Source of the DNA: an uncultured Phycisphaerales bacterium
Lineage (GTDB): Bacteria > Planctomycetota > Phycisphaerae > WQYP01
Direction: 5' to 3'
Assembly: GCA_903845195.1 (NCBI GenBank)
Contig: CAIMWO010000087.1
Coordinates: 1-64,000, forward strand
Length of the DNA stretch: 64,000 nucleotides
This document shows, in pieces, positions 397 to 16,956 of this stretch (within the stretch, counting starts at the first letter, position 1; the number at the start of each line of letters is the position of its first letter). The notes below the pieces were generated by a model, which was given only the letters and a program-made list of their open reading frames with translations, ran no database searches and was not told the DNA's origin. A program made the translations under genes and the position numbers.

Positions 397-1134
397 TTAC
401 CGGCCGAGGGTGTCGGGGGCCATGTCTTCGAGTTTGAAATCTTCGCGGCGGGTGATTTTTTCGAGTTTGCCGTCGCGGATCCAGCAGACGCGGTTGGAAC
501 TGGCGAGCATTTTGTGGTCGTGGGTGGAGCAAATGATGGTGACGCCGTCGTCGCTGTTGAGTTTTTTGAGGATTTCGATGATCTCGGTGCCGGTGCGTGT
601 GTCGAGGTTGCCGGTGGGTTCGTCGGCGAGGATGACGTCGGGAGTGTTGGCCAGGGCGCGGGCGATGGCGACGCGTTGCTGCTGGCCGCCGGAGAGTTCG
701 AAGGGCTTGTGATCGAGGCGTTCTCCGAGGCCGACCTTGGTGAGGACCTGTGCGGCTTTTTCGTGGGCCTCGCGCTTGGGGACGCCGGAGAACATGATCG
801 GTAGCATGACGTTCTGGACGGCGGACATGACCTGGACGAGATTGTAGGTTTGAAAGATGTAGCCGATCTTGTTGCAACGGATCCAGGATTGCTGGGATTC
901 GGAGAGGTCGAAGAGCGATTGGCCTTCGAAGAAGACGCGGCCTTCGGTGGGCATATCGAGTGCGCCGATCTGGTTGAAGAAGGTGGATTTTCCGGAGCCG
1001 GAGGGGCCCATGATGGAGATGAACTCGCTGCGATGGATTTCGAGGCTGATGCCTTTAAGCGCCCAGACTTCCTCGTTGCCCATGCGATAACGCTTCTTGA
1101 CGTTGTCGGCTTGAATGATGATGTCGTCGGCCAT
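397..1134 (-). CDS. ABC transporter ATP-binding protein (MacB/LolD type), copy 1
   Basis: A 245-residue nucleotide-binding subunit of the MacB/LolD/FtsE class, which powers FtsX-type permeases. Seen: Walker [10 protein letters not shown] at 43-51, Q-loop Gln95, signature LSGGQQQ at 147-153, Walker B with DEPTGNLD from 171, and H-loop His205. I chose the ATG at 1134 (protein begins MADD) because GGAG sits 5 bases upstream; an in-frame TTG at 1158 overlaps the previous gene's stop and is less likely. It is the last gene of the seven-gene operon and close to the ATPase at 1565-2344, with the PqqD-like gene between them. Its permease is either the FtsX protein at 2356 or the giant fusion at 5532; sequence alone does not say which. 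Confidence 0.93.
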
Positions 1135-1154
1135 AGCGACTCCGGAATAGGGAC

Positions 1155-1562
1155 TCAATGTCCCGGTTGGTAATTCTCAATCTGCAGGAGAATCATGTTG
1201 CGTAGCATGAGGGTGCGGGTGAATTTGAGGACGGCGGTACGGGCCTCTTCGGTGGAGCATTTGAAGTGGGTAGCGAAGGCGTCAGCGATGTTGTCGAGGT
1301 TTTTGGTTCCGTCTACCTGTCGCCAGTAGAAGCTGCCGCAGGCGTCGAGATTGAGCCGGGCGGAGTATTTGAAGCCGACCATGCGGCTGATGCGGCGTGT
1401 GAGGGAGCCTTTGGGCTGGATTCTGCGGCGAAGCTGGATGAGGCCGAGATTGTCGGCGCCGTGATCGATGTCGCCGGGAATCAAGGGGATCGCCGCCAGG
1501 GGATTGCGCGCGGGGATCGCGGCGCTGGGCGGAATCGGTTTTTGGCGGCGGGTCAGACGCAT
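1155..1562 (-). CDS. PqqD-like small protein between two ABC ATPases
   Basis: The 135-residue product has a core at about 66-128 that reads like the PqqD superfamily: ARLNLDACGSFYWRQVDG, then a THF/EEA helix pair and a final helix with LML and MILLQ. PqqD proteins are winged-helix peptide-binding domains, usually RiPP recognition elements that hand a precursor peptide to a radical-SAM enzyme. The first 60 residues are an Arg/Pro-rich extension that I do not recognise. The gene starts 2 bp after the upstream ATPase stop and sits inside a transporter operon with no radical-SAM gene or obvious precursor. Its role may be to recognise a peptide for export or sensing. The PqqD fold is likely; the function is unknown. 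Confidence 0.75.
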   Translation of the reverse strand: MRLTRRQKPIPPSAAIPARNPLAAIPLIPGDIDHGADNLGLIQLRRRIQPKGSLTRRISRMVGFKYSARLNLDACGSFYWRQVDGTKNLDNIADAFATHFKCSTEEARTAVLKFTRTLMLRNMILLQIENYQPGH

Positions 1563-1564
1563 GG

Positions 1565-2344
1565 TCAGTGCACCTCGCCTTTGGAGAAGTCGATTTCGGA
1601 GGGGTGTGCGGTTTTGACGATGACGCCGTCGGCGATCCAGACGATGCGGTCGGATTTTTGGAGCATTTTGAGGTCATGGGTGGCGGAGACGATGGTGACG
1701 TTGAGTTCGACCTTGAGTTTGGCGAGGAGGTCGATCATTTCTTCGCCGGTGCGGAGGTCGAGGTTGGCGGTGGGTTCATCGGCGAGGATGATTTCAGGGG
1801 AGTTGGCCAGAGCGCGGGCGATGGCGCAGCGTTGCTGCTGGCCACCGGAGAGTTCAGCGGGTTTGTGTAGTGCGCGATGGCCGAGGCCGACGAGTTTGAG
1901 GATGTGCAGTCCCTTGTCGCGGGCTTCCTCGCTTTCGAGGCCGGCGAAGGCCATGGGGAGGGTGACGTTTTCGAGGCAGGTCATGACCTGGATGAGGTTG
2001 TAGGACTGAAAGATGTAGCCGATGGTGCGGCAGCGGAGCCAGGCGAGTTCGTTGTGATCGAGCTGGGCGACGTCGACCTGGTTGATGTAGACCTTGCCGG
2101 AGCTTGGTTTGGAGAGTCCGCCGATGGCGTTGAAGAGGGTGGATTTTCCGGAGCCAGACGGACCCATGATGGAAAGGTATTCGCCTTGGAAGATATCGAG
2201 GGTGGCGCCGCGGAGGGCATGGACTTCCTGGGTGCCCATGCGGTAGACCTTTTTGACATCGACGGCGCGAATGATGGTGCGGCGTTGTCCGGCCGCAGGT
2301 TCGGCGAAGAGGTCAGCGAGTTTTTCTTGAGCGGTCAGAGACAT
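1565..2344 (-). CDS. ABC transporter ATP-binding protein (MacB/LolD type), copy 2
   Basis: A 259-residue ATPase, paralogous to the one at 397-1134. Seen: Walker [10 protein letters not shown] at 61-69, Q-loop Gln113, signature LSGGQQQ at 165-171, Walker B ending DE at 189-190 with PTANLD after it, and H-loop His223. It has about 20 more N-terminal residues than copy 1. The ATG at 2344 is preceded by AGGTG at good spacing; a longer in-frame extension upstream would run into the permease gene and is rejected. It starts 11 bp after the FtsX permease stop, so it is the most natural ATPase partner for that permease. Confidence 0.93.
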   Translation of the reverse strand: MSLTAQEKLADLFAEPAAGQRRTIIRAVDVKKVYRMGTQEVHALRGATLDIFQGEYLSIMGPSGSGKSTLFNAIGGLSKPSSGKVYINQVDVAQLDHNELAWLRCRTIGYIFQSYNLIQVMTCLENVTLPMAFAGLESEEARDKGLHILKLVGLGHRALHKPAELSGGQQQRCAIARALANSPEIILADEPTANLDLRTGEEMIDLLAKLKVELNVTIVSATHDLKMLQKSDRIVWIADGVIVKTAHPSEIDFSKGEVH

Positions 2345-2355
2345 CAGACACCTGA

Positions 2356-3402
2356 TTAAATATTGGATCGCAGAGCGGCGGCCGGCACCATGCGCGAGGC
2401 GAAGCGTGCGGGGTAGACCGCGGCGACCATGGAGAGCAAAACGCCGACGACGAGGGAAAACAACCCGTAAATTCCCAGCGTTCCCCAGGAGAGCGATGAG
2501 AACACCATTCCGAAGCCGTAACTCGAGGAGTAGAGGAGGACGGGGAAAAGGATGCCGAAGGCGACGCCGAGGAGTGCGCCCATGGTGCCGATGAGGGTGG
2601 ATTCGATGAGGAAGAGGCGGCGGATGAAGCTGGAGAGTGCGCCGAGGCATTTCATGGTGCCGATTTCGCGGAAGCGTTCGGTGACGCTCATGAGCATGGA
2701 GTTGGAGATGCCAATGACGGTGACCAGGAGGGAGACGACGATGATCCAGATGGAGCGGGCGCGTTCGCGTTTTTCAGCGGCGGCAAGGCTGACTTTTTCA
2801 TCGGCGCGGAGTTCGCGGCTGAGGGTGACGAGGGTGCCGCCGGCGAAGGTCTGGGTGGCCGAGGTGTTGGGGCGCGTGATGGCGATGACTTTCTGACGGG
2901 CGGGGGCCAGAACGGCGGACCAATCGACGGCTGAGGAATCGCCATCGCCGACGACGATCACGGCGCTGGCGTCTTTGGCGACAGCGGGCAGATCGACGAC
3001 GTCGGCGTCTTTGGGCGCTGGGAGCGATTTGTTCAACAGGGTCCACTGAAGCCGCGTCAGGCCCTGCTCGCGAATCGTCTGCAGGAAGCGGGTTTCCAGC
3101 GGGTTCAAGGGGCCGGCCTGGATGACGCCGAGGGTGCGTTCGTGGAGCGGGCCGGTATCGGCGGTGAGGAAGCTGAGCATGCGAACGAGTTCGGTGCGGG
3201 TTTTTTCTTCATCGCTGACGCCCTGGGTGACGAGCTGCGTCGTGAGAATCGACATAAGGAAGGCAATGCCCAGCGCCACACCGAGGATCGTGACAATCGA
3301 TCGGCCCAGGCGGATGCGGATGCCTTGGAGTACGACCTCCAAAGCGACCGAGACGGGCAGGGAGACCTGCTCGTGGATGGTTTGGTGTTGCGGAGTTGTC
3401 AT
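2356..3402 (-). CDS. FtsX/MacB-type ABC permease
   Basis: A 348-residue inner-membrane permease with the MacB/FtsX plan: TM1 at about 35-58, a periplasmic loop of about 150 residues, then three TM segments at about 217-240, 268-292 and 308-332. The motif TERFREIGTMKCLGA after TM2 is the family's conserved cytoplasmic coupling region. Such permeases with a LolD-like ATPase drive extrusion or mechanotransmission (lipoprotein release, peptide or toxin export) rather than classic import. The start is uncertain: ATG 3402 lacks a clear Shine-Dalgarno, and an in-frame TTG at 3423 has AGAGG too close. It lies between the OPT transporter (30 bp) and the ATPase (11 bp). Confidence 0.88.
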   Translation of the reverse strand: MTTPQHQTIHEQVSLPVSVALEVVLQGIRIRLGRSIVTILGVALGIAFLMSILTTQLVTQGVSDEEKTRTELVRMLSFLTADTGPLHERTLGVIQAGPLNPLETRFLQTIREQGLTRLQWTLLNKSLPAPKDADVVDLPAVAKDASAVIVVGDGDSSAVDWSAVLAPARQKVIAITRPNTSATQTFAGGTLVTLSRELRADEKVSLAAAEKRERARSIWIIVVSLLVTVIGISNSMLMSVTERFREIGTMKCLGALSSFIRRLFLIESTLIGTMGALLGVAFGILFPVLLYSSSYGFGMVFSSLSWGTLGIYGLFSLVVGVLLSMVAAVYPARFASRMVPAAALRSNI

Positions 3403-3432
3403 GGGACGCGTATCCAGTTTCAAATCCTCTGG

Positions 3433-5535
3433 TTAGAAGGGAGCGCTGGAAATAGCGCTCTGAATGAACCGCATGGCGATGGTGCTCATGCCGATAAGGC
3501 CGACGCCGGTGAAATAGCCGGCGCAGATTGTGGGCACCATGCGCAGAAAATTATCCGCGCCGAATTTTTTACCGAAGTAATAGCGGCCGATCAGCGCCCC
3601 AGCGAGCTCAAATATGATGGTGTGCGGCATACCTCCGCAGCCGCGGATCATGCCGTAGACCAGCATGACCGGCAATCCGAACATGTTAAGCACTGCGAAT
3701 GCGACGATGGTCACGGAGAAGCCGGTGCCGATCACAGTGGGGTGGATCGCCTGCATGAACTGGCTGTCCTTGATGTCGGCGGCGCGCTGGCCCGGCTGGC
3801 TGTAGGTGGAGGAATAGAGCAGGGCCATGTTTTTGGACTGGAGGGTCCACTGGACCTGGGCGGCGGGGAAGGCGGAGGAGGGGATGGGATCGGAGGCCCA
3901 GATGAAACCCCAGAAGACGAAGGAGAGGATGAAGCTGGTGGGGATGACGACGAGGTCGGTCTTGAGGAGGGACATGAAGTTGACGCCGGTGAGTTCGTTG
4001 ACGCGGAACTGCTGGGCCATGCCGCCGTAGTTTTCGATGGGGATGGGGGCCAGCCAGATGCCGACGCCTTTGGCACCGGAGAAGATGAAGGCGGTTTCGC
4101 GGACGAAGGGGATATCGACGCTTTGGCCGGAGATGCCGAGGAGTCGAGCGTTGACGTAGGAGATGAAGGGGTTGTAGATGAAGGCGAAGATGACGAGGAA
4201 GACGCGGAGCGTCGTATTCGGTGGCAGCAGGTAGTGGCAGAGGATGATGGTGGCGGTGGAGGCGAGGACGTAGCCGACGAGGCTGATCCAGAGGGGGAAA
4301 TCGCCGCGGCCCTTTTTGGGAGTGGCCCAGAGGTCTTTACGTTTTTCGGTGGAGAGGGTGTTTTTGCGGGAGCGGTTTTCCGCGAGGCGTTTGCGGACAT
4401 CGCGGATGGTTTGGAAGATCGAAACCGCGGCGATGCCCAGGCCGGTGCCGATGCCGAAGGAAATCCAGAAATCGACGCCATTGGCGAAGCTGGTGTTGAT
4501 GGTATCCATGCCGGGCTGCCAGCGTGTGAGTACGCCGTAGTGATGGAGCACCGGATTGAAAACCATCGTGGCGACAATGGCGATCGTGGTTCCGATCACG
4601 GCCCAGAAGGGAATGATCATGCCGATCAGGATGATGCCGGGATCGATAACCAAACCCGTGGGGGTTGCGGGGAGCACACCCTGGGTGATGTTGGTGGCGT
4701 CAAACCAGGGCTGGGGGAGGATGAAGATGGGCTTGTCGAAGAGCAGGCCGGTGATGGCCGGCACGCCGACCTGCAGCGCGCCAAAAAGTACGCCGAAGAA
4801 TACGCCCAGGGTAAACAATCGCCAGCGGTCGGACTTTTTGCGGAGGCCGGGCTTTTGTGCGACGAGGTCTTCTTCGTTGGCGGGTTTGGCGGGTTCATCC
4901 GCCTCGGCCATGGCCATGGCGCCCTGGGCGCTGATGGGGGCCATCGGGAAGGGAAGCTGTTCGATGTCGGAGGTGAGGCGGAAGAAGAAGTAGCCGAGGG
5001 TCCATTTGTTGATGAAGCCGATGACCGTCATCGCCGCCAGCAGGCCGATGGGGACGAGCCAGTCGGGATGGAAGAGGTTGCGTGAGACGATGGCGGGGCT
5101 ATCGGGGGAGGGGCTCCACCATGTGGGGAAGGCGCCGCGGAGGCCGGCATCGCGGACGGCGTCGCTGGTGACGAAGAAGGCGCGGAAGACGAAGCCTGCG
5201 AATGCGCCGCCGCCGGCCATCGCGCCGGCGGCCCAGAGGAGTACGACGAGCTCCTGTTTGCTGGGATTTTTCATGCTGCGGCGCATGATTTCGGCGAAGA
5301 GGATCACGGTGACCCACTGGGCGGCTGCGCCCATGCCGCCACCGGTCATGAGGCCGAGGTAGATGGACCCGGGCATCATGATCAGGCCGCAGAAGATGAC
5401 GCCGGCGACGGTGCTCCAGCCGAAGCCATCCTTGAACTCGGTGGGGGTTTCGAGCAGGTTGCGGTATTGGGCGAGCTCGGCGTCACCGAGGCTGAGTTTG
5501 GGTTTCTGTGCAACTGTTTCGGTGGTGGTGCTCAT
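3433..5535 (-). CDS. OPT family oligopeptide/metal-chelate transporter
   Basis: A 700-residue polytopic protein with about 14-16 hydrophobic segments. It carries the PFPMAPISAQGA stretch and the Gly-rich re-entrant type segments I associate with the OPT (oligopeptide transporter) superfamily. It also has a charged cytoplasmic loop at roughly 215-240 (EADEPAKPANEEDL). OPT proteins import small peptides or peptide-like metal chelates by proton coupling. Its ATG overlaps the stop of the 1717-residue gene in an ATGA, so the two are translationally coupled. Family assignment is from memory of motifs; the substrate is not readable from sequence. A peptide substrate fits the PqqD and peptidase-like neighbours. 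Confidence 0.78.
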   Translation of the reverse strand: MSTTTETVAQKPKLSLGDAELAQYRNLLETPTEFKDGFGWSTVAGVIFCGLIMMPGSIYLGLMTGGGMGAAAQWVTVILFAEIMRRSMKNPSKQELVVLLWAAGAMAGGGAFAGFVFRAFFVTSDAVRDAGLRGAFPTWWSPSPDSPAIVSRNLFHPDWLVPIGLLAAMTVIGFINKWTLGYFFFRLTSDIEQLPFPMAPISAQGAMAMAEADEPAKPANEEDLVAQKPGLRKKSDRWRLFTLGVFFGVLFGALQVGVPAITGLLFDKPIFILPQPWFDATNITQGVLPATPTGLVIDPGIILIGMIIPFWAVIGTTIAIVATMVFNPVLHHYGVLTRWQPGMDTINTSFANGVDFWISFGIGTGLGIAAVSIFQTIRDVRKRLAENRSRKNTLSTEKRKDLWATPKKGRGDFPLWISLVGYVLASTATIILCHYLLPPNTTLRVFLVIFAFIYNPFISYVNARLLGISGQSVDIPFVRETAFIFSGAKGVGIWLAPIPIENYGGMAQQFRVNELTGVNFMSLLKTDLVVIPTSFILSFVFWGFIWASDPIPSSAFPAAQVQWTLQSKNMALLYSSTYSQPGQRAADIKDSQFMQAIHPTVIGTGFSVTIVAFAVLNMFGLPVMLVYGMIRGCGGMPHTIIFELAGALIGRYYFGKKFGADNFLRMVPTICAGYFTGVGLIGMSTIAMRFIQSAISSAPF

Positions 5536-8500
5536 GCGACCTCCGCGGCAACATCAGTCGGTGCAGACATAACGGCCGTTTCAATTTGTTGGCGTGCCGC
5601 GTCGAAAAGACGTCCGCGTTCTTCGGGGCTTACGGCGCGCCAGTAGAGGAAATTCTTGCGAACCAGGCCGACGAAGCCTTCATTGAGGCGCATCCAGCTT
5701 TCGCGGGTGCCGGACAGGCGCGTGAGCTGGAGGCGGGCGATAAACTCGCCGGTTTCAGGATCGGTGGGCATACGGATGATGAGCTCCTGCGAGACGCCGA
5801 GGTCGAAGGGTTTGAGCCAGATGGTGGTGCGGATTTCGGGGATGAGGCCGGCGGAATCTTCGGTGGCGGCAAATTCGGGCTTGCCGGCGTGGAAGGTGCC
5901 GGTGCCGCCTTCGCCGTGATCCATGAAGATGCGGTTGAAAAATTCCAGCACGGCGATGCGATCTTTGCGGTCGAAGGTGAACGGAAGGGCGAAGGCGATA
6001 GCATCATCCTGGGCGGGCGGCAACGACCAGCCCTGGTCGTCCGCGGGGGTGGCGATTCTGCCGGCGGAACGCGCCGGGAAATATGTGGAGACGAACACGG
6101 CCACGGCCACGGCGATCGAGGCGAAGATCGTGTTGATGTTGGTAAAGGTCATCCGCATGCCGCCGGTCCACTGGTAACCGGTGACGGCTTCGAGTTCGGT
6201 CAAGGTTCTGCCGAGGCCCTGGCTGAGCAGGAAGCCCAGCACGGCGCCGACGACTGCGTAGACGAACGCCTCGGCGAAGAACATGAAGAAGACGTAACGG
6301 GGAGCGATGCCGACGGCGTTGTAGACGAAGATTTCATCCTTGCGCTCATAGACGCTGCCGCGCATCGTATTGAGCACCGTCAGTGCGGCGACCAGCAGCG
6401 GCACGAGCAAACCGGCCAGGCCGGCGAAGCTGGTGGCGCGGGCGAGTTGCCCGATGTACGCGATGCCATCGAGGCCGTAGTACGTTTCATTGCCGCTCTG
6501 TTCCAGTTGGGTATTGATGGCGGATTTGGCGTCCTTGTAGCCGAGGGCATTGAACTCCACCGCCACCGACGTCAGACGCGCCCCGGCATGGGCGGAGGAA
6601 AGCGTATCGAACGGACGGCTGGCGGCGAGAATGACGCGTTCGGGGGAAAGCTGCGGATCGTTCAGCGAGGCCAGCAACGAGCTGCCGGCCACCCGGGGAG
6701 TGGCGATGGCTTCGGCGTCGAAGGGCAGGAGATTGCGGCCGTCGAGATCGCGTGCCTCGGCCAGCGACGCGCCGGCGAAAATGCCCCAGACACTGCACAA
6801 TTTGCCGCAGACTTTGACCGTCGGCAGACCCGCGTTTACATCGCGAACGTTCAGCCCCAGATTGCCCGCCATCGATTCCGGCAACATGATGAGGATCGGA
6901 TCTTTCGTCGACATTTTTTCCGGCGGCGGCGGGAACCAGCCCCGATTGGTCAGCAGCTTGATCTTCTCCTGCAGCGGTTCACGGTTGGACAGAACCAGCA
7001 TCGAGTTGGCGATCACTTTTCTCGAGATGGCCATCGCGTCGGGCTGGGTGGCGGCTTGCGCGGCCGGGTCGTAAACGATATCGAGCTGCGGGTTATAGAC
7101 GACCTGATCCCACGTCCGTTCCCCGACATACATGGTCCGCGGCGCCACGGTATACATGTGTGCGTACTTGTTCTGCAACGCAAAGAAGTCGCCTTCGCCG
7201 ATGGGATAAAAGCTGTCGGGCTTGAGCAGGAATCCCTGGTAGGGCGCCTTGCCGACGGCCACGGCCTTTTCCTTCAAATCGCTGGTGACGCTGGTGAAGC
7301 AGATCATGGCGAACGTGATCAGCACCAGGGTGGCGCAGGTCAGTCCGGTACGCACCTTGCGGCGATGCATGTTGTTGAGGCCCAGCATGAAGGCGGTGCC
7401 GATGACGCCGAAGGTGTTGATTTCGGCGGCGGTCACCTTGCCGCGCTGCTTGCGGAGCTCATCGAGGTTTTCCTGGAACTTGCCGAAGAAGAGCATCGTG
7501 ATGCCGGCGGAAATCAGGAGGATCACAAATCCCAGGAGGATCATCAGAGACGAGCGGATCATCTCAAAGGCCGGATGCAGGAGCTTGAGCAGGGCGAAGA
7601 CGACCAGGATCACCATCGCCTGGGTGATGATCTGCTTGCGTACATCGGCAAAGCCGAAGACCAGTTTCTCGAAGAAGAACGCGAACGGCACGAGGAGCCC
7701 GAGGTACCAGAGCACGCCGATGACGGCCTCTGAAATGGCCCCGCGGAGCACCGGGTGATTCAGCGTCGAGTAGGTCACCGATTCCTGCGACAGCAGGGTG
7801 CGCTGGTGCTGGCTGATGCCGGGCTGCGTCGAGGCTTCCAGGCTTTCATGCGCCCGCTTCTCAAAGGCGACGACGCGCTCGTCGGCCATGTGGTGACGTT
7901 CTTGAAGTTCGAGGCGGCGATCGTCCACCTGCAGCATGGCGGAGGCCACGCGCTGGGGTATGTCGCGTATGAGCAATGAATCGGCGGCCAGGTAGCCGGG
8001 GCCGTCGATTTCCTTGTGCGGATCGAGCGGGTAATGCGTGGCGGCGATCGATTCGGTGCCCAGAAGAAATGCGCGGGTGGCCTGGGTGGAGGGGCTGTCG
8101 GCAGCGCCGGCCTTCAATTCCACGTAGAGGAACAGCTCGGGCTCGACGAAGGTGAGGCTTCCCTCTTCACCGCGGTATTTGTAGAAGCGGCTGAGGTCGG
8201 CCAGGCCGTCGCGCACAATCAGATCGACAGCGCCGTAAGCGGTGAGGGTCTGGGGATTGATGAGGTCGAGGATACCAACAGGTGCGGCGCGAAATACCAC
8301 GACGTTTACACTCAGTGCGCTGGTGCCCCATTGGCTGAAGTTATTGGACTTGTAGACGGATTGGCCGATGGACCCGTCATCCTTCATGTAACGGATGACG
8401 CCGTTGGGGCCGTAGCCGGCGATTTCCGGGGAGTAGGGCCAAACGACGTCGGTGGCCCAGAGGGGGCGTGAATAACGGCCATAGGGATCGGTGATGTCCA

Positions 8501-10685
8501 TCATTTGAGGCAGGTAGCCGAACTGCTGGAACACCTGGTACTGGGGTTTGGGGGCGAAGAGGGCGCCGGCGAGGGGGTAGTTGGGGACGACTGATTTACC
8601 GACCCCGGCGACGTATACGCAACCGTTGAAGGTTTTTGCGCCGGCCTTGAGGGGCAATTCAAACCAGCCGTTGCCGTGGGCCAGCCACAACATGGTTTCG
8701 CCCGCGACATGAAGGGAGTGTTGCATGGTGCCGAGGTCGCGCATGAAGGGTTTGGAGATGGGCGAATTTTTGAGTTCGTAGGCCGAGGTGCGATCGGTGT
8801 TGATCAGGCTTACCGACGGATACGAGAGGCGGTTCCAATAAGTCGTCGAAGTGTTGAGATCGGGAACACGCGACGCAATCTTGCTGCTGTGCTTGGCGTC
8901 GTTAATCGATTCATACCGAAAGGCGGCGAAGTCAGCGGCGGAGCCCTCTTTGTCGGCATCGGCGCGGAGGCGATTGGTGCGGCGGAGCAGGGCGTTGTTG
9001 AACAAGGGGTACTGAACGTAGGCGCCCTCTTCGACACCCGGCCCCATGAAGACGGTCATCGACTCAGAGGGCGTCTTGCTCGGCTCCGTCGGCAGAATCT
9101 GCGGCGCGACTACCACCACGGTGGAGTATTGATGAATCGCATCGTGGATGGCTAGCGCCTGGCGCGACCGGCCCAGTTCCGCTTCGTGGAACGCATGCAA
9201 GGTCCCGAACCGGTCCACGCAGCGCTTGATCAGGTCGGCCTCGGTGATGAAGGTTGCGGAGGTGGCGACCAGTTTTCCCAGCGGATAGCCGCCGACCGCC
9301 AGCGCCTCGTCGTAGCCGGCCTTCATCTTCATGTAGGCCAGGAACTCGGGCGATTCGAGATTGCTGTCCATGCGCTTGAGGAACTCGATCTTCGCCTGCA
9401 GTTGCGCTTCGGTGCGCTCCAGCAGTATGGTGTTCATCACGTAGCGGAACTGCTCTTCAAAAAAGTTTCGCTCATCCTTCTTGAGACCCGCCACGAGTGA
9501 CTCGGTGGCCGCGGCATCATGCAGGAAGCGGGAATCGGCGCACAGGCGGATGATCGCGTCCAACTGCGCCAGGCGCAGCTGGTTCTCATCGCGTTCCTTG
9601 ACCAGTGCTTTCCGCGCCGGTGCGGGATCATGGGCCGAGCCGAGGATGGACAAGAGCCGTGCTGAGGAGTCCTGAGCGGCGACCTGCCCGCCGGTGGCGA
9701 TGAAGACCACGTCCCGCCGCAGGTGCGCTTTGTAGCTTTTGAGTCCATCCAGCATCGCCAGTTGGGTGGCCGCGGGGACGGCCGAGAGTTCGCCGGGCGC
9801 CAGGTCAGGCAGAATCGACGGCGCATCATATTCTGCCGGGATGATCAGTGCGGAGGGATCTGTCTTGTCGGCCACGCCGGCGCGAAGTATGCCCACCAGG
9901 ATCGGGTTGCGGATCTTCCGGTATTCCGTCCGCACCCGCAGCGTGACGGGTTCGTCGAGGTGATCGAAAATCCCCGGCGCGGCCACCACGCGGACATAGT
10001 TCATCGGCAGCGATCCGACGGCCAGGCTCTTGCGCCAGTTGATCTTGTCGAGGCCGTCGCGGCTGGAAACGATCATCGCCTTGAAGCCGACCTGTGCATA
10101 CTTGGCCCACAGCACGCCAAACGCCTTCGGCTGCTTCATCGCGTCGATCAGGGCGATGCAGTCGTCAAATTTGGGCCGGGTGTTCAGCAGTTCGTCGGTG
10201 ACCAGCACCAGCTTTCCCGCGAGGCCCTCGGCGGGCGTATTCATCGGTTGAATGTAATTGGGGAAATAGGGGAACAGTTCGACATTCGAGAGCGGCTTTC
10301 CGTCGGCGCCGAGAATCTGCCGCTCCAGCGTCCACGGCGCCACGGTTTGATTCTCATACTCGAGGAGTTCCAGGCCGGCATCGCGATAGGCCTGGCGGAT
10401 GTAGTCGGCAGTCTTGTAGAAGCCGTCCTGGCCGATGAAACGCGAACCCATCCCGATGATGTCCTGTTGGTGCGCCGCCACCTGCGCCGGCGCCACAGCC
10501 CCGCGCATTACCGCGGGATCATAGGACTCGTCGGCGGACCCCGTGGGCAGGGGCGGGCGTGGTGCAAACAGGGTCACGTAAAAGCACATGGCCAGCAGCA
10601 ATAGCGCAGCGAAGATGGCCGCCACGCCCAGGCGCTGTAGAAGGCTCACCGGCCTGTGATTCACTCGATCACCCGCTGTAGACAT
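5532..10685 (-). CDS. giant M28-peptidase-like (degenerate) / FtsX permease fusion
   Basis: The 1717-residue protein starts with an N-terminal TM (about 15-37), then an ectodomain whose opening (HQQDIIGMGSRFIGQDG and an amphipathic helix) matches the start of M28 Zn-aminopeptidase folds. Where active M28 enzymes have AHYDS, an Asp and a Glu-Glu pair, this protein has AEYDA near 286, no matching Asp, and GGQVAAQ near 328, so the metal site looks lost. A long predicted extracytoplasmic part with helical segments follows, then a TM block (about 980-1075). After that comes an FtsX-type core: TM near 1110-1130, a large loop, then TMs near 1415-1490 and 1512-1535 with RGSVYERKDEIFVYNAVG as coupling motif. 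A cytoplasmic tail of about 170 residues ends it. The ATG at 10685 overlaps the upstream gene by 17 bp. Confidence 0.8.
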   Translation of the reverse strand: MSTAGDRVNHRPVSLLQRLGVAAIFAALLLLAMCFYVTLFAPRPPLPTGSADESYDPAVMRGAVAPAQVAAHQQDIIGMGSRFIGQDGFYKTADYIRQAYRDAGLELLEYENQTVAPWTLERQILGADGKPLSNVELFPYFPNYIQPMNTPAEGLAGKLVLVTDELLNTRPKFDDCIALIDAMKQPKAFGVLWAKYAQVGFKAMIVSSRDGLDKINWRKSLAVGSLPMNYVRVVAAPGIFDHLDEPVTLRVRTEYRKIRNPILVGILRAGVADKTDPSALIIPAEYDAPSILPDLAPGELSAVPAATQLAMLDGLKSYKAHLRRDVVFIATGGQVAAQDSSARLLSILGSAHDPAPARKALVKERDENQLRLAQLDAIIRLCADSRFLHDAAATESLVAGLKKDERNFFEEQFRYVMNTILLERTEAQLQAKIEFLKRMDSNLESPEFLAYMKMKAGYDEALAVGGYPLGKLVATSATFITEADLIKRCVDRFGTLHAFHEAELGRSRQALAIHDAIHQYSTVVVVAPQILPTEPSKTPSESMTVFMGPGVEEGAYVQYPLFNNALLRRTNRLRADADKEGSAADFAAFRYESINDAKHSSKIASRVPDLNTSTTYWNRLSYPSVSLINTDRTSAYELKNSPISKPFMRDLGTMQHSLHVAGETMLWLAHGNGWFELPLKAGAKTFNGCVYVAGVGKSVVPNYPLAGALFAPKPQYQVFQQFGYLPQMMDITDPYGRYSRPLWATDVVWPYSPEIAGYGPNGVIRYMKDDGSIGQSVYKSNNFSQWGTSALSVNVVVFRAAPVGILDLINPQTLTAYGAVDLIVRDGLADLSRFYKYRGEEGSLTFVEPELFLYVELKAGAADSPSTQATRAFLLGTESIAATHYPLDPHKEIDGPGYLAADSLLIRDIPQRVASAMLQVDDRRLELQERHHMADERVVAFEKRAHESLEASTQPGISQHQRTLLSQESVTYSTLNHPVLRGAISEAVIGVLWYLGLLVPFAFFFEKLVFGFADVRKQIITQAMVILVVFALLKLLHPAFEMIRSSLMILLGFVILLISAGITMLFFGKFQENLDELRKQRGKVTAAEINTFGVIGTAFMLGLNNMHRRKVRTGLTCATLVLITFAMICFTSVTSDLKEKAVAVGKAPYQGFLLKPDSFYPIGEGDFFALQNKYAHMYTVAPRTMYVGERTWDQVVYNPQLDIVYDPAAQAATQPDAMAISRKVIANSMLVLSNREPLQEKIKLLTNRGWFPPPPEKMSTKDPILIMLPESMAGNLGLNVRDVNAGLPTVKVCGKLCSVWGIFAGASLAEARDLDGRNLLPFDAEAIATPRVAGSSLLASLNDPQLSPERVILAASRPFDTLSSAHAGARLTSVAVEFNALGYKDAKSAINTQLEQSGNETYYGLDGIAYIGQLARATSFAGLAGLLVPLLVAALTVLNTMRGSVYERKDEIFVYNAVGIAPRYVFFMFFAEAFVYAVVGAVLGFLLSQGLGRTLTELEAVTGYQWTGGMRMTFTNINTIFASIAVAVAVFVSTYFPARSAGRIATPADDQGWSLPPAQDDAIAFALPFTFDRKDRIAVLEFFNRIFMDHGEGGTGTFHAGKPEFAATEDSAGLIPEIRTTIWLKPFDLGVSQELIIRMPTDPETGEFIARLQLTRLSGTRESWMRLNEGFVGLVRKNFLYWRAVSPEERGRLFDAARQQIETAVMSAPTDVAAEVA

Positions 10686-13290
10686 CTGCCATGCCCATCG
10701 CTCGGAAATAGGTGGCCAATGCCACCGAAATAAACTCGCCGGAAAGTGCTCCGACTAACAAACCTATTGCGAACGGTTGTAACTTGTTGCGGATCGTCGC
10801 CGCACCGCCAAACCACAGTACGAACCAGCGTACGAGCAAGGCGACCAGCGCGCTGCCCCACAGCTTGGCCCCAAAATACGGAGATGCGCTGACGACGAAT
10901 CCGATCGGATGGAACCAGAACCAGGAAAACATCTGCCGCATGGCCGTCAGGATCACCGTGACGATTGCGGAATACCCGTAGGCGTACCACGTCGGATCGA
11001 TGTGGTGCGCCGCGCCGGCGGGTCCGGCGTTCAATACATTGGCATGTTGCGCCTGGTCCATCAGCGCGTTGAACGGCTGGAAATTCCAGGCCTTCGAATC
11101 AAACGCCCAGCCGTACTTGATCGTATCGCCACCCAAGGCATACGCATTGGACAGGAACGCCCAGCCACCCAGAAACAATCCGCCCAGCATCGCCAGGACG
11201 AGCGTGGTGGTGATATGCGAGGGGCGCACGCGCCAGCGCCGGCCCAGTTCGATCATTTCCATCTGTCCGCCCGGGATCAGAAAGAACGTCGTCGGACCCA
11301 TGAAGAACGTGACGACATAACAGAAGAACATCGCCTGCGGCCCAAAGACGGGGATGCCGCCGGTCACGGTCAGTATGAGTGCGAGATTGAACACGGCAAA
11401 CTCGCTCCAAGGCGTTCCGCACTCGGTGCGTAATTTCGAGCTGACCATTCCGATCAATACGATCCCGGCCAGGAAGGTCAGAATGCCCAGGACCGAGATT
11501 CCCACCCAATGCGCCCAGATCCCACCGAATCCAAAACATGCCGCCAGCAGTAACAGTGACGTGCGATAACTGAAGAGTTCGCCGTTGGATGCCGCCTTGT
11601 CGTTGAAGAGCGCGGCCTTAAGTACGCGCCCGATATAGCGCCAACTCAACGCCATGATCATGAGGCCGTACGCGACATAGGATCCCAGCATCTGTTCATT
11701 TCCGAGCGGGAAATTGGGCGTCGTGTCCCACCCGTACTTGTGCCCGATCCAATATTGCGTCCGAAATACCCAGAATCCCAGGATAATGCTGAACAGCACG
11801 TTCAGTTCCATGAACAGGCACAGGCTGATGAAGAACATGTTCAGATCGAAGTTGACGTCGAACATCGTGCCCCATGTGCCGCTGGTGAAGAACTCGTTCA
11901 TGCGGTGCGTGACGGTCACGTCCGGAATCACCGGATTCACGTGCCGCCAGATCTTCCCCAGGGTCCACAGGAGGCCGATCGCTCCTCCGGCCCACATCCA
12001 GCCGTTTTTCCAGATCGGGGCGGAGGCGCCGGGAGCGTCGGGATCGGGTCCCAGAAGCAACTGGGTCACCCGGGCCATGGGCATCAGGTACCGCTCACTA
12101 TCCATCCATTGCTGGCGCATCAGCGCATTGACCGCCAGGAACGCCACCATGATCAGGATCAGAAACGATGACCACACCGCCGCGGGCATGAGCCAGTCGC
12201 GCAGGGGAATGTACCCGGCAATGACAAACTTCAGCCCGGACCAACTCACCATGTTGTCCGGCTTGACCACCACGCCCGCCCGTGCCGCCTCCGGGAGCTT
12301 CGCGTAGTTGCTTTCGCGGACAATCACGCGGCCCTTGTAGATCCCTTCGAGCGTCGAGACGTTCATCAATTTTGCATCGGCGATCTCGAGGCGACCTATG
12401 CCGCTGAGCCCCAGTTCCACATCGACATATTTCTCGAGCGTTCCCGGGAATTTCGTCCCGTAGGCCCCCAGCCGCTGAAATCCCTTCTGGTGCAACGCGG
12501 TGACCCGCGGACCGGATTCGGAACTGAATATCTCCTGGAACTTGCTACCGCCGTCTTCGTAGACCCGGCAGTAATACTTCGACCCCGGCGCCAGCTCCGT
12601 GGCCCGCGCCAATACGCTGAACAGGTACGGCTCGCTGCGGACGATTCCGGCCTCGGTGCCATCCCGCGGCACCACCGGAACCCGCAGTCGTACGGCCGAA
12701 ACCTCGTCCGACCGCGTGTTTGCCATGACCGGCAGATTTTCCGTTTTTTCCGCCTCATATTCGACGGGCTGCCAGACGACATTTCCCCGGATGCCCGGCC
12801 GGAGCAAATCGGCGTTGTTAAGCTCTCCCGCCAGCAGATTTTCACCGTGCGGCCAGAGTCGATCGTTGAATGCGTCCAGCTTGTCCCACGTTTCCGTGCT
12901 CCGCGGAATCGTCCCCGTGATGGCGATAAACCGATGCCAGAAGCCCTGCGTCATCAGCGGCGCGGAGACCAGCATTGCGTAAATGACGCAGAGGAGTTCG
13001 GGGCGGCTGAGAATCCGCAGGCGGGCCATCGACCAGGAAATCCCCACCACTCCCAGCAATACCAGGGCGATCCACATCGCGGGCAACGCCAGCGTCTCTT
13101 CCGCCAGCGGGAGGCTGAAACTCAGGACCACCTCGCCGTACTGAATCAGCATCGACAGCAGCATCATTGCGAAGATGGCGGCCGCCGCCGATTTGAGGGT
13201 GATGCCGGCGCGCCATGTGGCACCCGGGCGTATATCGGCCCCGTCCTCTGACGAACGGGCTTGTGATTCTTGCTCTTTCTGTGCCTGCAT
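10669..13290 (-). CDS. large polytopic membrane protein (DUF6785/DUF6784-like)
   Basis: An 873-residue protein and first gene of the operon. TM segments lie at about 35-57 and 67-90. An extracytoplasmic region follows at about 130-350, with beta-type sequence and repeated Tyr/Val stretches, and then at least ten TM helices. The C-terminal part contains GPTTFFLIPGGQMEMIELGRRWRV. From memory this resembles the DUF6785/DUF6784 proteins common in Planctomycetota and Lentisphaerota, which look distantly like OPT transporters. No enzymatic motif is seen. The ATG at 13290 follows about 360 bp without genes, and the next gene overlaps its 3' end by 17 bp, which argues for a shared transcript. Substrate and role are unknown. 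Confidence 0.7.
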   Translation of the reverse strand: MQAQKEQESQARSSEDGADIRPGATWRAGITLKSAAAAIFAMMLLSMLIQYGEVVLSFSLPLAEETLALPAMWIALVLLGVVGISWSMARLRILSRPELLCVIYAMLVSAPLMTQGFWHRFIAITGTIPRSTETWDKLDAFNDRLWPHGENLLAGELNNADLLRPGIRGNVVWQPVEYEAEKTENLPVMANTRSDEVSAVRLRVPVVPRDGTEAGIVRSEPYLFSVLARATELAPGSKYYCRVYEDGGSKFQEIFSSESGPRVTALHQKGFQRLGAYGTKFPGTLEKYVDVELGLSGIGRLEIADAKLMNVSTLEGIYKGRVIVRESNYAKLPEAARAGVVVKPDNMVSWSGLKFVIAGYIPLRDWLMPAAVWSSFLILIMVAFLAVNALMRQQWMDSERYLMPMARVTQLLLGPDPDAPGASAPIWKNGWMWAGGAIGLLWTLGKIWRHVNPVIPDVTVTHRMNEFFTSGTWGTMFDVNFDLNMFFISLCLFMELNVLFSIILGFWVFRTQYWIGHKYGWDTTPNFPLGNEQMLGSYVAYGLMIMALSWRYIGRVLKAALFNDKAASNGELFSYRTSLLLLAACFGFGGIWAHWVGISVLGILTFLAGIVLIGMVSSKLRTECGTPWSEFAVFNLALILTVTGGIPVFGPQAMFFCYVVTFFMGPTTFFLIPGGQMEMIELGRRWRVRPSHITTTLVLAMLGGLFLGGWAFLSNAYALGGDTIKYGWAFDSKAWNFQPFNALMDQAQHANVLNAGPAGAAHHIDPTWYAYGYSAIVTVILTAMRQMFSWFWFHPIGFVVSASPYFGAKLWGSALVALLVRWFVLWFGGAATIRNKLQPFAIGLLVGALSGEFISVALATYFRAMGMADVYSG

Positions 13291-13652: not shown

Positions 13653-14549
13653 TTATTGCGCCTTTCGCGCGGTAATGGATCGAGCGATCGCGGAAATATG
13701 CAGCGGCGTGGTCCCGCAGCACCCACCGAGGATCCGCACGCCCGCGTCAAGAAGCATCGGGACGACTTGTCCCATCTCCTCCGGCGTGGCGGATCGCCGA
13801 TCGCCGGCCCCGGGGGAACCGGCATTGGGCTGCAGAATCACCGCCACGGGACCTGCTGCCGCAACGAGTTGCCGCGCCAGTTCCACATATTCCGGCAACG
13901 ACAGCGATGTGCCGCAATTCGCCCCCAGCGCATCGACGCCGGCGTCGCGCATCGTCTGGGCAATCTGCCCGACCGTCGCCCCCGTCATCGTGCGGAACGA
14001 TCCGTCGCCGATTTTGGAAAACGCAAAGGTCGTCAGCACCGGCCAGTCGGCCACGCGGCGCGCCACGCGTACCGCTACCGTCGCTTCGCCCGGGTCCGCC
14101 ATCGTCTCGATCAAGATGCCATCGGCGCCGCCTTCGTGCAAGGCTGCAATCTGTTCTGAAAATATGGCCTCAAGTTCGGGTTCTGTCACGGTTCCGACCG
14201 GCTCGAGGAAATCTCCGAACGGCCCGACATCGCCCAGCACGATGGCATCCGGGCCAGCTCCGGCGCGCGCCGCCTGGGCGCCGGCGATGTTGATTTCCCG
14301 CACTTTGGCGTCAAGCCCGTGGCGTTCGAGCATGGAGCGCGTGGCGCCGAAGGTGTTGGTCGTCACCATGTCCGAGCCGGCGTTGAAATAGTCGCGGTGA
14401 ATGGCCTGGACCCGGTCGGCATGATCGATGCACCAGCGATCGGAGCATTCACCCGGGGCGAGGCCGCGGGCGAGCAATTGCGTGCCCATCGCTCCGTCGC
14501 ACAACAGCGTTCCTTCACGCAATCTCTGCAGAAAATCAGCGCGTTTCAT
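13653..14549 (-). CDS. homocysteine S-methyltransferase (BHMT/MetH N-domain type)
   Basis: A 298-residue Pfam S-methyl_trans-like protein. The N-terminal DGAMGTQL and TNTFGA motifs are seen, and the Zn/thiol-binding cysteines are intact: Cys212 in GANCGTS and Cys277-Cys278 in GGCCGTTP. It is the size of a stand-alone MetH homocysteine domain, without a methyltetrahydrofolate or cobalamin domain. With the corrinoid protein at 18099, it could form a split methionine synthase in which methyl-Co(III) passes its methyl group to homocysteine or another thiol. ATG 14549 has AAGGGG 6 bases upstream; longer in-frame extensions run through the preceding UroD gene and are rejected. Confidence 0.88.
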   Translation of the reverse strand: MKRADFLQRLREGTLLCDGAMGTQLLARGLAPGECSDRWCIDHADRVQAIHRDYFNAGSDMVTTNTFGATRSMLERHGLDAKVREINIAGAQAARAGAGPDAIVLGDVGPFGDFLEPVGTVTEPELEAIFSEQIAALHEGGADGILIETMADPGEATVAVRVARRVADWPVLTTFAFSKIGDGSFRTMTGATVGQIAQTMRDAGVDALGANCGTSLSLPEYVELARQLVAAAGPVAVILQPNAGSPGAGDRRSATPEEMGQVVPMLLDAGVRILGGCCGTTPLHISAIARSITARKAQ

Positions 14550-14569
14550 CGCAACCCCTTCGACTCTTA

Positions 14570-15628
14570 TCACACGGAACAGTTTAACATGGTATCGACT
14601 TTGGCCTTGATCCGGCACTCGCATCCGGTGACGGAGAGCACATCGCACTCGCTGCCCAGGATCAGGGGATGCCCGGTACGGCACATGTTCGTGATGAGTT
14701 CCCGCGTCATCTGAATGACATTCTCCTCCGTCACTTTCGTATCGGAGTAGAAACTCTTGGTGGGGAGATTGCCGTAGAGCACGACGTTGTCCGGCACAAT
14801 TAGCGCATCTTCCCAGAGTTTTCGCGAACTGCCCAGCGAGAGCATGACCGGATCGAGCGAGGCGAAATCGCGCAGCATCTGATTGGTGATCTCGCCGCAG
14901 CAATGGAAGATCAGGTCGACGCCCGCATCGCCGAGTTGCTTGCGGATGCGGCGATTGGGCTGCATCACCAATCGTTCCCAGACGTCGCTTCCGGTTTCGA
15001 GTTGTTTGGGCGAAATATAGGCCACGTTGGCGGCCGGTTCTGCGAGCACGATGGCCTTTGCCCCCGCTTCGATCTGGCGGGCCAGCGACCGATGGATGAT
15101 CATCTCCGCCAGTGCCAGGGCCCGTTCGACGTTCTGCACTTCGGGGTCTTCCTCCGCCGTGGTTCCCGCACCCAACATATAGACCGGCGTGATCGGGTCC
15201 GCCAGCAGCTTCGTCATCAGCGAGAACGGCCCGATGCACATGCCCGAAGAGACCAGCGACCGATCCGTTGCCACGATCTTGATGGCATCGACATGCGCCT
15301 GCGATCGCACATCCAGCGGCCCCTTCAGCCGGCTTTCGACGATTGACAACGTCTCCGCAGCAATCGAGTCGGGAAAGTGAAATTCCGCAGCCTGGGCATA
15401 CGGAATCCCCAACAGCCCCAGCAGCGACGCCTTTTCCAGCGTCAAATCCATCAACGGAATCGCCAGCGGCGTCTGATAGCGCGTCGCCGCTTCCGCGACC
15501 ACGGCTCCCAGCCGCCGGCCGTCGAGACGTATGGCGTCATGGTCTGGTTTTTCATGCAGGACCAGATCCGTCCCGATCGGCATGCGCAGTCCGCGCGCCG
15601 CCAAATCCAGGTAGTACTGCCGCTTCAT
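14570..15628 (-). CDS. UroD-family methyltransferase with intact HxCG zinc motif
   Basis: A 352-residue TIM-barrel protein of the uroporphyrinogen decarboxylase superfamily, the branch containing MtaA/MtbA methylcobamide:thiol methyltransferases. HCCG at 242-245 supplies a His-x-Cys pair, and Cys328 in GSECDV is well placed as third zinc ligand, so this copy can plausibly activate a thiol acceptor. The start MKRQYYL at 15628 is preceded by AAAGGTG at 5-bp spacing. It begins 4 bp after the stop of the next UroD gene and ends 20 bp before the homocysteine methyltransferase start. It is unlikely to be heme-pathway HemE given neighbours and zinc residues. Confidence 0.85.
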   Translation of the reverse strand: MKRQYYLDLAARGLRMPIGTDLVLHEKPDHDAIRLDGRRLGAVVAEAATRYQTPLAIPLMDLTLEKASLLGLLGIPYAQAAEFHFPDSIAAETLSIVESRLKGPLDVRSQAHVDAIKIVATDRSLVSSGMCIGPFSLMTKLLADPITPVYMLGAGTTAEEDPEVQNVERALALAEMIIHRSLARQIEAGAKAIVLAEPAANVAYISPKQLETGSDVWERLVMQPNRRIRKQLGDAGVDLIFHCCGEITNQMLRDFASLDPVMLSLGSSRKLWEDALIVPDNVVLYGNLPTKSFYSDTKVTEENVIQMTRELITNMCRTGHPLILGSECDVLSVTGCECRIKAKVDTMLNCSV

Positions 15629-15632
15629 TCTG

Positions 15633-16814
15633 TCACCTTTGTACCGCATGTCCCGCGCACTGCGGCGGGCAAATCTGTCCAATGGGTTTCAAATTCACCC
15701 CGTGTCCCCACACCTCCCGGACGCAGTGCAGGTAATACATATAATTTTCCAGCGGCACATCCGGCGGAACGCGGTGGTCGGCAAAGCCGATGAAGCCGCC
15801 CTCTTCCACCAGCGGGGCAAGCCGGAGCACTTCGGCCCGAATGGCTTCCTTGCTCCTGGCCATGATGTGCTTGTCGAAACCGCCCATCATCAGTAATTGT
15901 TTGCCGTACTGTTTGCGGAACTTCACCGGATCGGCGCCCCAGGTTCCGATTTCAATGGGGAACATGCAGTTGACGCCTGCGTCGAGCCAGAGGGGCAGAA
16001 GGTCATCGATTTTTCCGTCGCAATCGACCCAGATAATGTCCACGCCGTGGCTGCGTAGGAGGCCCGTGATGCGTTTGTAGTGCGGAACGAGGAACTGTTT
16101 GAAATGCGCGGGGGATAACAGCGGTCCGCCGTTGTAGCACATATCTTCCCAGATGCTGCAGCCGTCGAAGACGCCGCCGGTGCGCAAGACGCGCGTCAGC
16201 GATGCGACGATGCAATCGGCGACGGTGGTGACCATTTCTTCAAACCACGCTGGATCGTCGTAGACGACGTAGCTGATCGCTTCCATGCCCATCCAGTCGC
16301 GGAGCCAGCCGAAGAGGCTTCCACCCCACAATGTCGCCGGCTTCGCCCGCCCGTTATCGCGCCAGATTCGTTTGGCCTGGTCCCAATCCTGCGGGTAGCG
16401 GCGGGGGTCGTCGGGATCCAGCCGCCACTGGTAATGCTCTTTCCAGCTTTGCCGATCGACGAGCAGATGTCCTTCATGCATGGGGATCGACGACATGTGT
16501 TTTTTGCGCAGCACGCGGACGCCGTCGCCCTGTTGCACGACTTCATGATCGCCGCGATCTTCGATCACCTTGTATTCGAAGCCCGGGCAGAGCCCCACGT
16601 TGAACCCCGGCCCGCCGCTGTATTCGTCCATGCCAAAAAATTCATTGGCCGACGTGCCATCATAATTCTTATAGATCACGCGCTGGGGTAATCCCTGATT
16701 GTGCCATTCGTCGATGGTTTCCGACCAGAAGCCGAAGTCGCAGATGGGCGAGCGATCGCGGGGAAGGTAGTGCATCGTTGCGAGAAAGCGTTGACGTTCA
16801 TTCATGACGTTCAT
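15633..16814 (-). CDS. UroD-family protein, zinc motif altered (VDCDG)
   Basis: A 393-residue UroD-superfamily protein. The position matching HxCG reads VDCDG in DIIWVDCDGKIDD, so the His is gone and an Asp-rich pocket replaces it. Such proteins occur in multiples in Planctomycetota and are usually annotated only as uroporphyrinogen decarboxylase family. Genomic context with a corrinoid shuttle suggests a methyl donor:corrinoid methyltransferase or an accessory protein. ATG 16814 has AGGAG 11 bases upstream; ATG 16805 is an alternative. It is followed after 4 bp by the HCCG-bearing paralogue. Confidence 0.8.
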   Translation of the reverse strand: MNVMNERQRFLATMHYLPRDRSPICDFGFWSETIDEWHNQGLPQRVIYKNYDGTSANEFFGMDEYSGGPGFNVGLCPGFEYKVIEDRGDHEVVQQGDGVRVLRKKHMSSIPMHEGHLLVDRQSWKEHYQWRLDPDDPRRYPQDWDQAKRIWRDNGRAKPATLWGGSLFGWLRDWMGMEAISYVVYDDPAWFEEMVTTVADCIVASLTRVLRTGGVFDGCSIWEDMCYNGGPLLSPAHFKQFLVPHYKRITGLLRSHGVDIIWVDCDGKIDDLLPLWLDAGVNCMFPIEIGTWGADPVKFRKQYGKQLLMMGGFDKHIMARSKEAIRAEVLRLAPLVEEGGFIGFADHRVPPDVPLENYMYYLHCVREVWGHGVNLKPIGQICPPQCAGHAVQR

Positions 16815-16956
16815 GATATTAAAAACTCCTGACACCGCCGAATCCAGCATACTTCTGGAACCGCTCGCTGCCATCCATCCCGCTGCCAAACCCCTATATT
16901 ATCCTGCTGCGACACGTCCTCTGAATTGCCCCGTTGTTTGATTCTCTGCTTTTTGC

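Follow-up and report, generated by a model that had tools for sequence, protein, structure and literature searches.

What is an aminopeptidase fold doing on the outside of an ATP-binding cassette (ABC) permease when the residues that would hold its metal ions are gone? The question is raised by a single gene at 5532..10685 on the minus strand of contig CAIMWO010000087.1, positions 1 to 64,000, from an uncultured Phycisphaerales bacterium; this whole stretch of 64,000 nucleotides is referred to below as the window. The gene is an intact open reading frame (ORF) of 1717 aa in which an M28-like ectodomain is joined to an FtsX permease. A sequence-only reading of positions 9600-10685 had taken the ectodomain for a binding or sensing domain without a metal site, from which the permease would pass a signal to an ATPase. 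The fold, the loss of ligands in the protein and in its family, the FtsX/MacB fold of the permease, the intact ORF and a conserved gene neighbourhood are all directly supported, and we modestly favour a function that runs the other way, outward from ATP. The fusion gene and its parts are as follows (all on the minus strand).

5532..10685 (-): fusion gene, 1717 aa, with a transmembrane (TM) helix, M28-like ectodomain, beta-rich domain, three TM helices, MacB/LolC-type FtsX half and C-terminal domain
10554..10652 (-): N-terminal TM helix, residues 12-44, from hydropathy
8664..10538 (-): M28-like fold, residues ~50-674, from profile-profile comparison, PDB profile search and predicted structure
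9951..10298 (-): PA-like insertion within the M28 fold, residues ~130-245, its approximate limits taken from homologues
9822..9836 (-): AEYDA, residues 284-288, with E285 at the first-ligand His of the HxD motif and D287 retained
9771..9797 (-): PGELSAVPA, residues 297-305, where the bridging Asp of the GADDN motif is lost
9672..9692 (-): GGQVAAQ, residues 332-338, with Q334 for the catalytic Glu and V335 for the ligand Glu
9135..9623 (-): long helical, coiled-coil-like insertion, residues ~355-517, from model secondary structure and a gap in the profile alignment
9099..9101 (-): Q529 at the M28 ligand-Asp position (SGAP D160), from profile alignment
8766..8768 (-): N640 at the M28 ligand-His position (SGAP H247), from profile alignment
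7473..7742 (-): TM helices 2-4, residues 982-1071, from hydropathy and model
6033..7427 (-): FtsX permease half with MacB-like periplasmic domain, residues 1087-1551, from Pfam FtsX and structure matches
5613..6029 (-): C-terminal domain past the last TM helix, residues ~1553-1691, presumably on the cytoplasmic side; the model looks helix-grip-like, with weak matches

The ectodomain is assigned to M28 because profile-profile alignment, HMMER comparison with PDB sequences and the predicted structure agree. We aligned the window ectodomain with 52 of 65 homologous segments (alignment A2, 53 rows; partial and redundant segments omitted, namely L063, L079, L084, L085, L086, L089, L096, L105, L108, L110, L113, L116 and L117); a second family alignment, A4, held 50 of 63 segments plus the window. 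Against 12 canonical M28 domains from genomes of the same class, the 53-row family gave hhalign probabilities of 99.3-99.4% (E from 1.7e-19 to 4.5e-20). Its profile found the M28 enzymes 2ek8 (E 1e-22) and 6hc6 (E 7e-18) among PDB sequences, and also nicastrin (E 3e-9), the transferrin receptor (E 1e-8) and nicalin (E 3e-7); window residues 1-528 searched as a single sequence against PDB sequences returned no match at E up to 10. The AlphaFold model of the ectodomain (predicted local distance difference test, pLDDT, 90.6; predicted template modelling score, pTM, 0.92) superimposes on 1amp (Z 24.9, 3.0 Å, 276 residues) and 1cp7 (Z 24.8, 2.5 Å, 250 residues), and its best matches are the M28 structures that carry a PA domain, 6hc7 (Z 26.4, 5.8 Å, 380 residues) and 2ek8. 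Residues ~50-674 are thus predicted, by profiles and model alike, to be an M28 aminopeptidase fold with a PA-like insert, and the different fold that would have undone the sequence-only reading was not found.

Pfam M28 (PF04389) is not listed for the window protein at a limit of E 10, a limit at which HMMER filters drop most matches above ~0.1. It matches 29 of the 53 family ectodomains at E ≤ 0.001, the window's not among them, so the kinship with M28 is visible through the homologues. Pfam PA is found in four of the 53 at the same threshold, again not in the window's. A weak Pfam match of the window protein to nicotianamine synthase (E 0.03-0.2) was taken as noise. The domain is larger than had been noted. 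The range 9600-10685 does hold the M28-like start and first half, as claimed, whereas the PA-like insert and the helical insertion had gone unremarked and the fold continues to about residue 674, so that Q529 and N640 lie outside that range. The helical insertion has no counterpart among the 12 canonical domains aligned. Compared with known M28+PA aminopeptidases (BSAP/YwaD, 6hc6; the Aneurinibacillus enzyme, 2ek8; PaAP), residues ~50-674 share the fold and the PA-like insert but differ in the lost ligands and catalytic Glu, the long helical insertion and the fusion to a permease. The transferrin receptor, nicastrin and nicalin, which the family profile matches, are likewise M28 folds tethered to a membrane; they are eukaryotic and are not known to have a working metal site or to form part of an ABC permease.

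We scored the metal site at five co-catalytic ligand positions (H, D, E, D, H), which, like the SGAP residue numbers used here, we take as given. Re-translation confirmed that AEYDA, an Asp-free stretch and GGQVAAQ occupy the places of the M28 motifs. None of the five ligands is kept in the window protein (H85 is E285, D97 is S301 or a gap, E132 is V335, D160 is Q529 and H247 is N640), and Q334 stands in the place of the catalytic Glu (E131). D97 is the least certain site, with a one-residue deletion there in the family; residues 295-306 (LAPGELSAVPAA), which correspond to the place of the GADDN Asp, are Asp-free, D294 lies in the loop immediately before them, and D287 belongs to the HxD motif. 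This D287, a second-shell residue, is kept. No small shift of the alignment restores a ligand, there being no His in residues 284-306 and no Glu in 325-339, and both sequence comparisons place the HxD and Glu-Glu motifs identically. The 12 control domains, read in the same columns, have H in 11, D in 12, E in 12, E in 12, D in 11 and H in 12. The window ectodomain thus combines an M28 fold with a lost metal site, as non-catalytic M28 homologues do; judged from the alignments, the site is wholly lost and the domain is predicted to be inactive rather than an active enzyme, as the sequence-only reading had supposed.

The loss is not peculiar to the window gene. Among the 53 rows, H85 is His in five, E131 and E132 are Glu in one each, D160 is Asp in 27 and H247 is His in none; the number of metal ligands kept is zero in 20 rows, one in 28 and two in five. 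We extended the count to 103 distinct fusions, the window's included, after removal of sequences at least 97% identical; D97 was scored as kept if an Asp stood at either of two columns in the 53-row count and at any of four in the 103-fusion count, and the search for candidates scored at most three per genome. Here H85 is kept in 5/98 readable fusions, E131 in 1/97, E132 in 2/98 and H247 in 0/101, and the Glu-Glu pair in 0/97. When H85, E131, E132, D160 and H247 are all required to be readable, 95 fusions qualify, of which 23 keep none of the five ligands, 61 keep one and 11 keep two. A fused member with intact ligands was sought among these relatives and none was found; by alignment the site is incomplete in every readable fused relative, so that its loss is family-wide. 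The Asp of HxD (51/53 rows) and the glycine of the PGA motif (G298; 48/53) are kept, so the family has preserved the fold even as its ligands changed.

Three large frames with M28 domains or matches were set aside. L216 and L217 contain H..EE and combine M28 with an M1-like domain and PA or PDZ; they have no FtsX match at E ≤ 0.001. L185, a long M28-matching frame, was judged from partial sequence only to be a different protein. As an observation apart, L216:1155-5387 and L217:1695-4757, from genomes of the same phylum, each unite an M1-like part with M28 (and PA or PDZ) in a single polypeptide in which HxD and Glu-Glu are present.

The C-terminal part is, on sequence and model together, a MacB/LolC-type (type VII) ABC permease half of the form TM helix, periplasmic domain, three TM helices. 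Pfam FtsX (PF02687) matches residues 1427-1543 (E 3e-12, 47.1 bits, cut-off 25.5), which bears out the proposed joining of the ectodomain to an FtsX permease. Hydropathy places TM helices at ~12-44, 982-1010, 1017-1044, 1046-1071, 1111-1138, 1414-1445, 1463-1492 and 1512-1539; an additional hydrophobic stretch at 788-809 is modelled as beta-rich and was not counted. The model of residues 691-1717 (pLDDT 86.6, pTM 0.76) matches MacB (5gko, Foldseek E 3.2e-9), LolC and HrtB, with firm pieces against 7w7c (Z 16.0, 2.7 Å, 156 residues) and against 3ftj, the periplasmic domain of MacB (Z 10.4, 3.8 Å, 179 residues); BceAB relatives also appear among the fold matches. The C-terminal domain matches Bet v 1, DcrB and BamC at Z 8.2-8.6, too weak to give it a name, and is conserved in the family, for example in a WLAPFDLGV stretch of the consensus.

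The genes around the fusion overlap or are tightly spaced in an operon with every gene on the same strand.

10669..13290 (-): 873-aa membrane protein, DUF6785/DUF6784, upstream, with a 17-base overlap with the fusion gene
3433..5535 (-): 700-aa multi-TM protein, OPT-like family, downstream, overlapping the fusion gene by 4 bases
2356..3423 (-): second FtsX/MacB-like permease, 355 aa, 9 bases past the 700-aa gene
1565..2323 (-): LolD/MacB-type ABC ATPase, part of ORF 1565-2650, LolD model E 9.5e-65
397..1158 (-): LolD/MacB-type ABC ATPase, ~400 bases beyond the other ATPase gene, LolD model E 3.9e-72

An ATPase such as the sequence-only reading called for is encoded twice in the same operon, and LolD is the best-scoring model for both genes. 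A scan for promoters and terminators gave no excess above shuffled sequence. We called neighbours in other genomes by phmmer with the window proteins (E ≤ 1e-6, frames of at least 150 codons), a procedure that short or very divergent genes may escape. The OPT-like gene lies downstream in 52 of the 61 loci that have at least 1.5 kb there, and in the 28 loci with a full neighbourhood an ABC ATPase is found in 22, the small FtsX permease in 22 and a DUF6785 protein like the window's in ten. The name of the OPT-like family rests on four of its 22 members matching Pfam OPT (PF03169) at E ≤ 0.1 (best 3e-9), a distant likeness to the oligopeptide transporters; the window member has no such match, and the family profile found no match among PDB sequences. 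We also observed that the DUF6785 protein (10669-13290) and the 700-aa protein (3433-5535) align over 113 columns (hhalign 72.9%, E 3e-5), which is suggestive only; the two may be distant relatives.

The family is present in 48 of 392 genomes of the phylum at E ≤ 1e-20. Among the relatives listed (in named genomes, the best 80 of 105), record titles name Planctomycetota, Lentisphaerota, Verrucomicrobiota, Kiritimatiellota, Armatimonadota, Latescibacterota, Sumerlaeota and others. A quick tree puts the window gene in a six-row set (Shimodaira-Hasegawa-like approximate likelihood ratio test, SH-aLRT, 99) with copies whose records are titled Kiritimatiellota, Sumerlaeota, Verrucomicrobiota and Lentisphaerota. 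The 14 rows with Planctomycetota in their titles all lie away from this set, 13 of them in the other half of the tree. Transfer or a mis-binned contig is a possible explanation of this placement. A second copy in the same genome (L031:4403-9451) is 30% identical to the window copy over the matched part.

We lean, with a little better than even confidence, towards the fusion being a giant type VII permease subunit whose pseudo-peptidase arm is moved outward by ATP and acts on a peptide or protein client, gripping or regulating it. The fusion and the small FtsX permease would pair in a type VII (MacB/LolCDE/FtsX-type) ABC complex, the cytoplasmic LolD-like ATPases would drive these permeases, the motion would pass outward until it reached the M28-like arm with its helical insertion, and the arm would then grip or regulate its client, possibly acting jointly with the OPT-like membrane protein of the adjoining gene. 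Given the M28 fold and the OPT-like neighbour, one would first guess the client to be a peptide or protein. Since published work describes the energy of ATP in FtsEX and MacB as passed outward to the periplasm, outward mechanotransmission would be no less likely than inward sensing. The closest parallel is FtsEX-EnvC, which couples a type VII ABC permease to a coiled coil and a catalytically dead peptidase domain; the LytM domain of EnvC is reported to lack catalytic residues, and an ATP-driven change to reach it through FtsEX and the coiled coil (PMC7668044). EnvC, in contrast, is made as a protein of its own and its fold is M23 (LytM), whereas here the fold is M28 and lies within the permease's own chain. 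MacB, LolCDE and YbbAP share with the window system the FtsX fold, the MacB-like periplasmic domain and LolD-like ATPases. To our knowledge, none of them has an M28-like ectodomain or an OPT-like partner gene.

Several results weigh against this proposal. A nearby ATPase is missing in six of the 28 full-neighbourhood loci and the OPT-like gene in nine of the 61. The window's own genome, 94% complete, has no Pfam M28 match at E ≤ 0.001, such as 21 of the 31 genomes searched have, so a partner M28 enzyme for the arm to regulate is not evident. Many of the longer permease alignments have root-mean-square deviations of ~15-20 Å, and only the shorter single-domain matches are firm. TM helices 1-4 and 5-8 show no detectable homology as a sequence duplication (hhalign probability 0.1), which leaves a pseudo-dimer unsupported. 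Decay of the metal site is furthermore uneven: D160 is retained in 61 of 102 readable fusions, and scattered fusions retain H85 (5/98) or one Glu (1/97, 2/98).

The pseudo-peptidase could instead be a receptor, in which an outside ligand such as a peptide signals inward through the FtsX helices to ATPase activity or transport, much as the sequence-only reading had it; we consider this rather doubtful. A dead enzyme fold suits binding, the OPT-like family distantly resembles oligopeptide transporters, and the BceAB relatives among the fold matches lend the idea some substance, Bce systems being linked to sensing. The nearest permease matches are nevertheless MacB, LolCDE and FtsX, an outward passage of energy having been described for FtsEX and MacB, and the six-row window clade shares no residue set at the former active site.

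It is unlikely, in our estimate, that the arm serves as the extraction or hand-over module of an exporter or extruder of the LolCDE or YbbAP-TesA kind, accepting from the permease a lipoprotein, a peptide or a hydrophobic compound for delivery across the periplasm. The FtsX core already bears a MacB-like periplasmic domain of its own, which counts against such a role for the arm, even with ATPases that score best with LolD, a permease that matches LolC/E and MacB, and a precedent in YbbAP-TesA, where a hydrolase is reported to dock onto a type VII permease (PMC12646458).

That the site has been converted rather than lost in part of the family seems a distinctly small chance. His-Asp-Asp (H-D-D) occurs at the places of E131, D160 and H247 in 17 of the 53 rows (L058, L059, L061, L062, L064, L065, L067, L069, L070, L072, L073, L075, L076, L078, L092, L098 and L118) and in 26 of the 95 fully readable fusions, mainly in records of Armatimonadota, Latescibacterota and the like and in a few planctomycetes. 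Such a triad could hold one metal ion or form another catalytic set; it may mark a converted site, and it speaks against simple decay. These sequences are related, so that 26 fusions are not 26 independent events, and the window protein reads Q-Q-N at these places in a clade without H-D-D.

That the M28 peptidase is active and its ligands escaped notice in a faulty alignment is barely credible and was set aside, although automatic annotation would call peptidases from the 29 Pfam matches: the two sequence comparisons place HxD and Glu-Glu alike, the fold agrees, no usable ligand residues lie nearby in the window protein and no readable fusion has the Glu-Glu pair.

If the ATP-driven arm is the right reading, the fusion would join EnvC as a second example of a type VII ABC machine with a dead peptidase for its outer part, and the single chain makes the relay directly testable in one polypeptide. 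Dead M28 folds and type VII ABC permeases were both known already, and what appears to be new is their joining. Among the titles listed in literature searches (20 of 35, 10 of 15 and 10 of 50 in some of them), none describes a fusion of a dead M28 fold with a type VII permease, which is weak evidence of absence. We suggest tentatively, with less confidence than for the arm itself, that these genes may form an undescribed and widespread type VII class in which a dead M28 fold (re-purposed in the H-D-D members) is built in as an outer arm and, with an OPT-like partner, uses ATP to handle peptides or proteins on the surface of the cell. Automatic annotation could label many members of the family as M28 peptidases, with a complete site kept, by sequence, in none of the 95 fully readable fusions.

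Further upstream in the window, a cluster at 13653-18045 on the minus strand encodes three URO-D-like proteins together with a homocysteine S-methyltransferase and may represent a methyl-transfer pathway.

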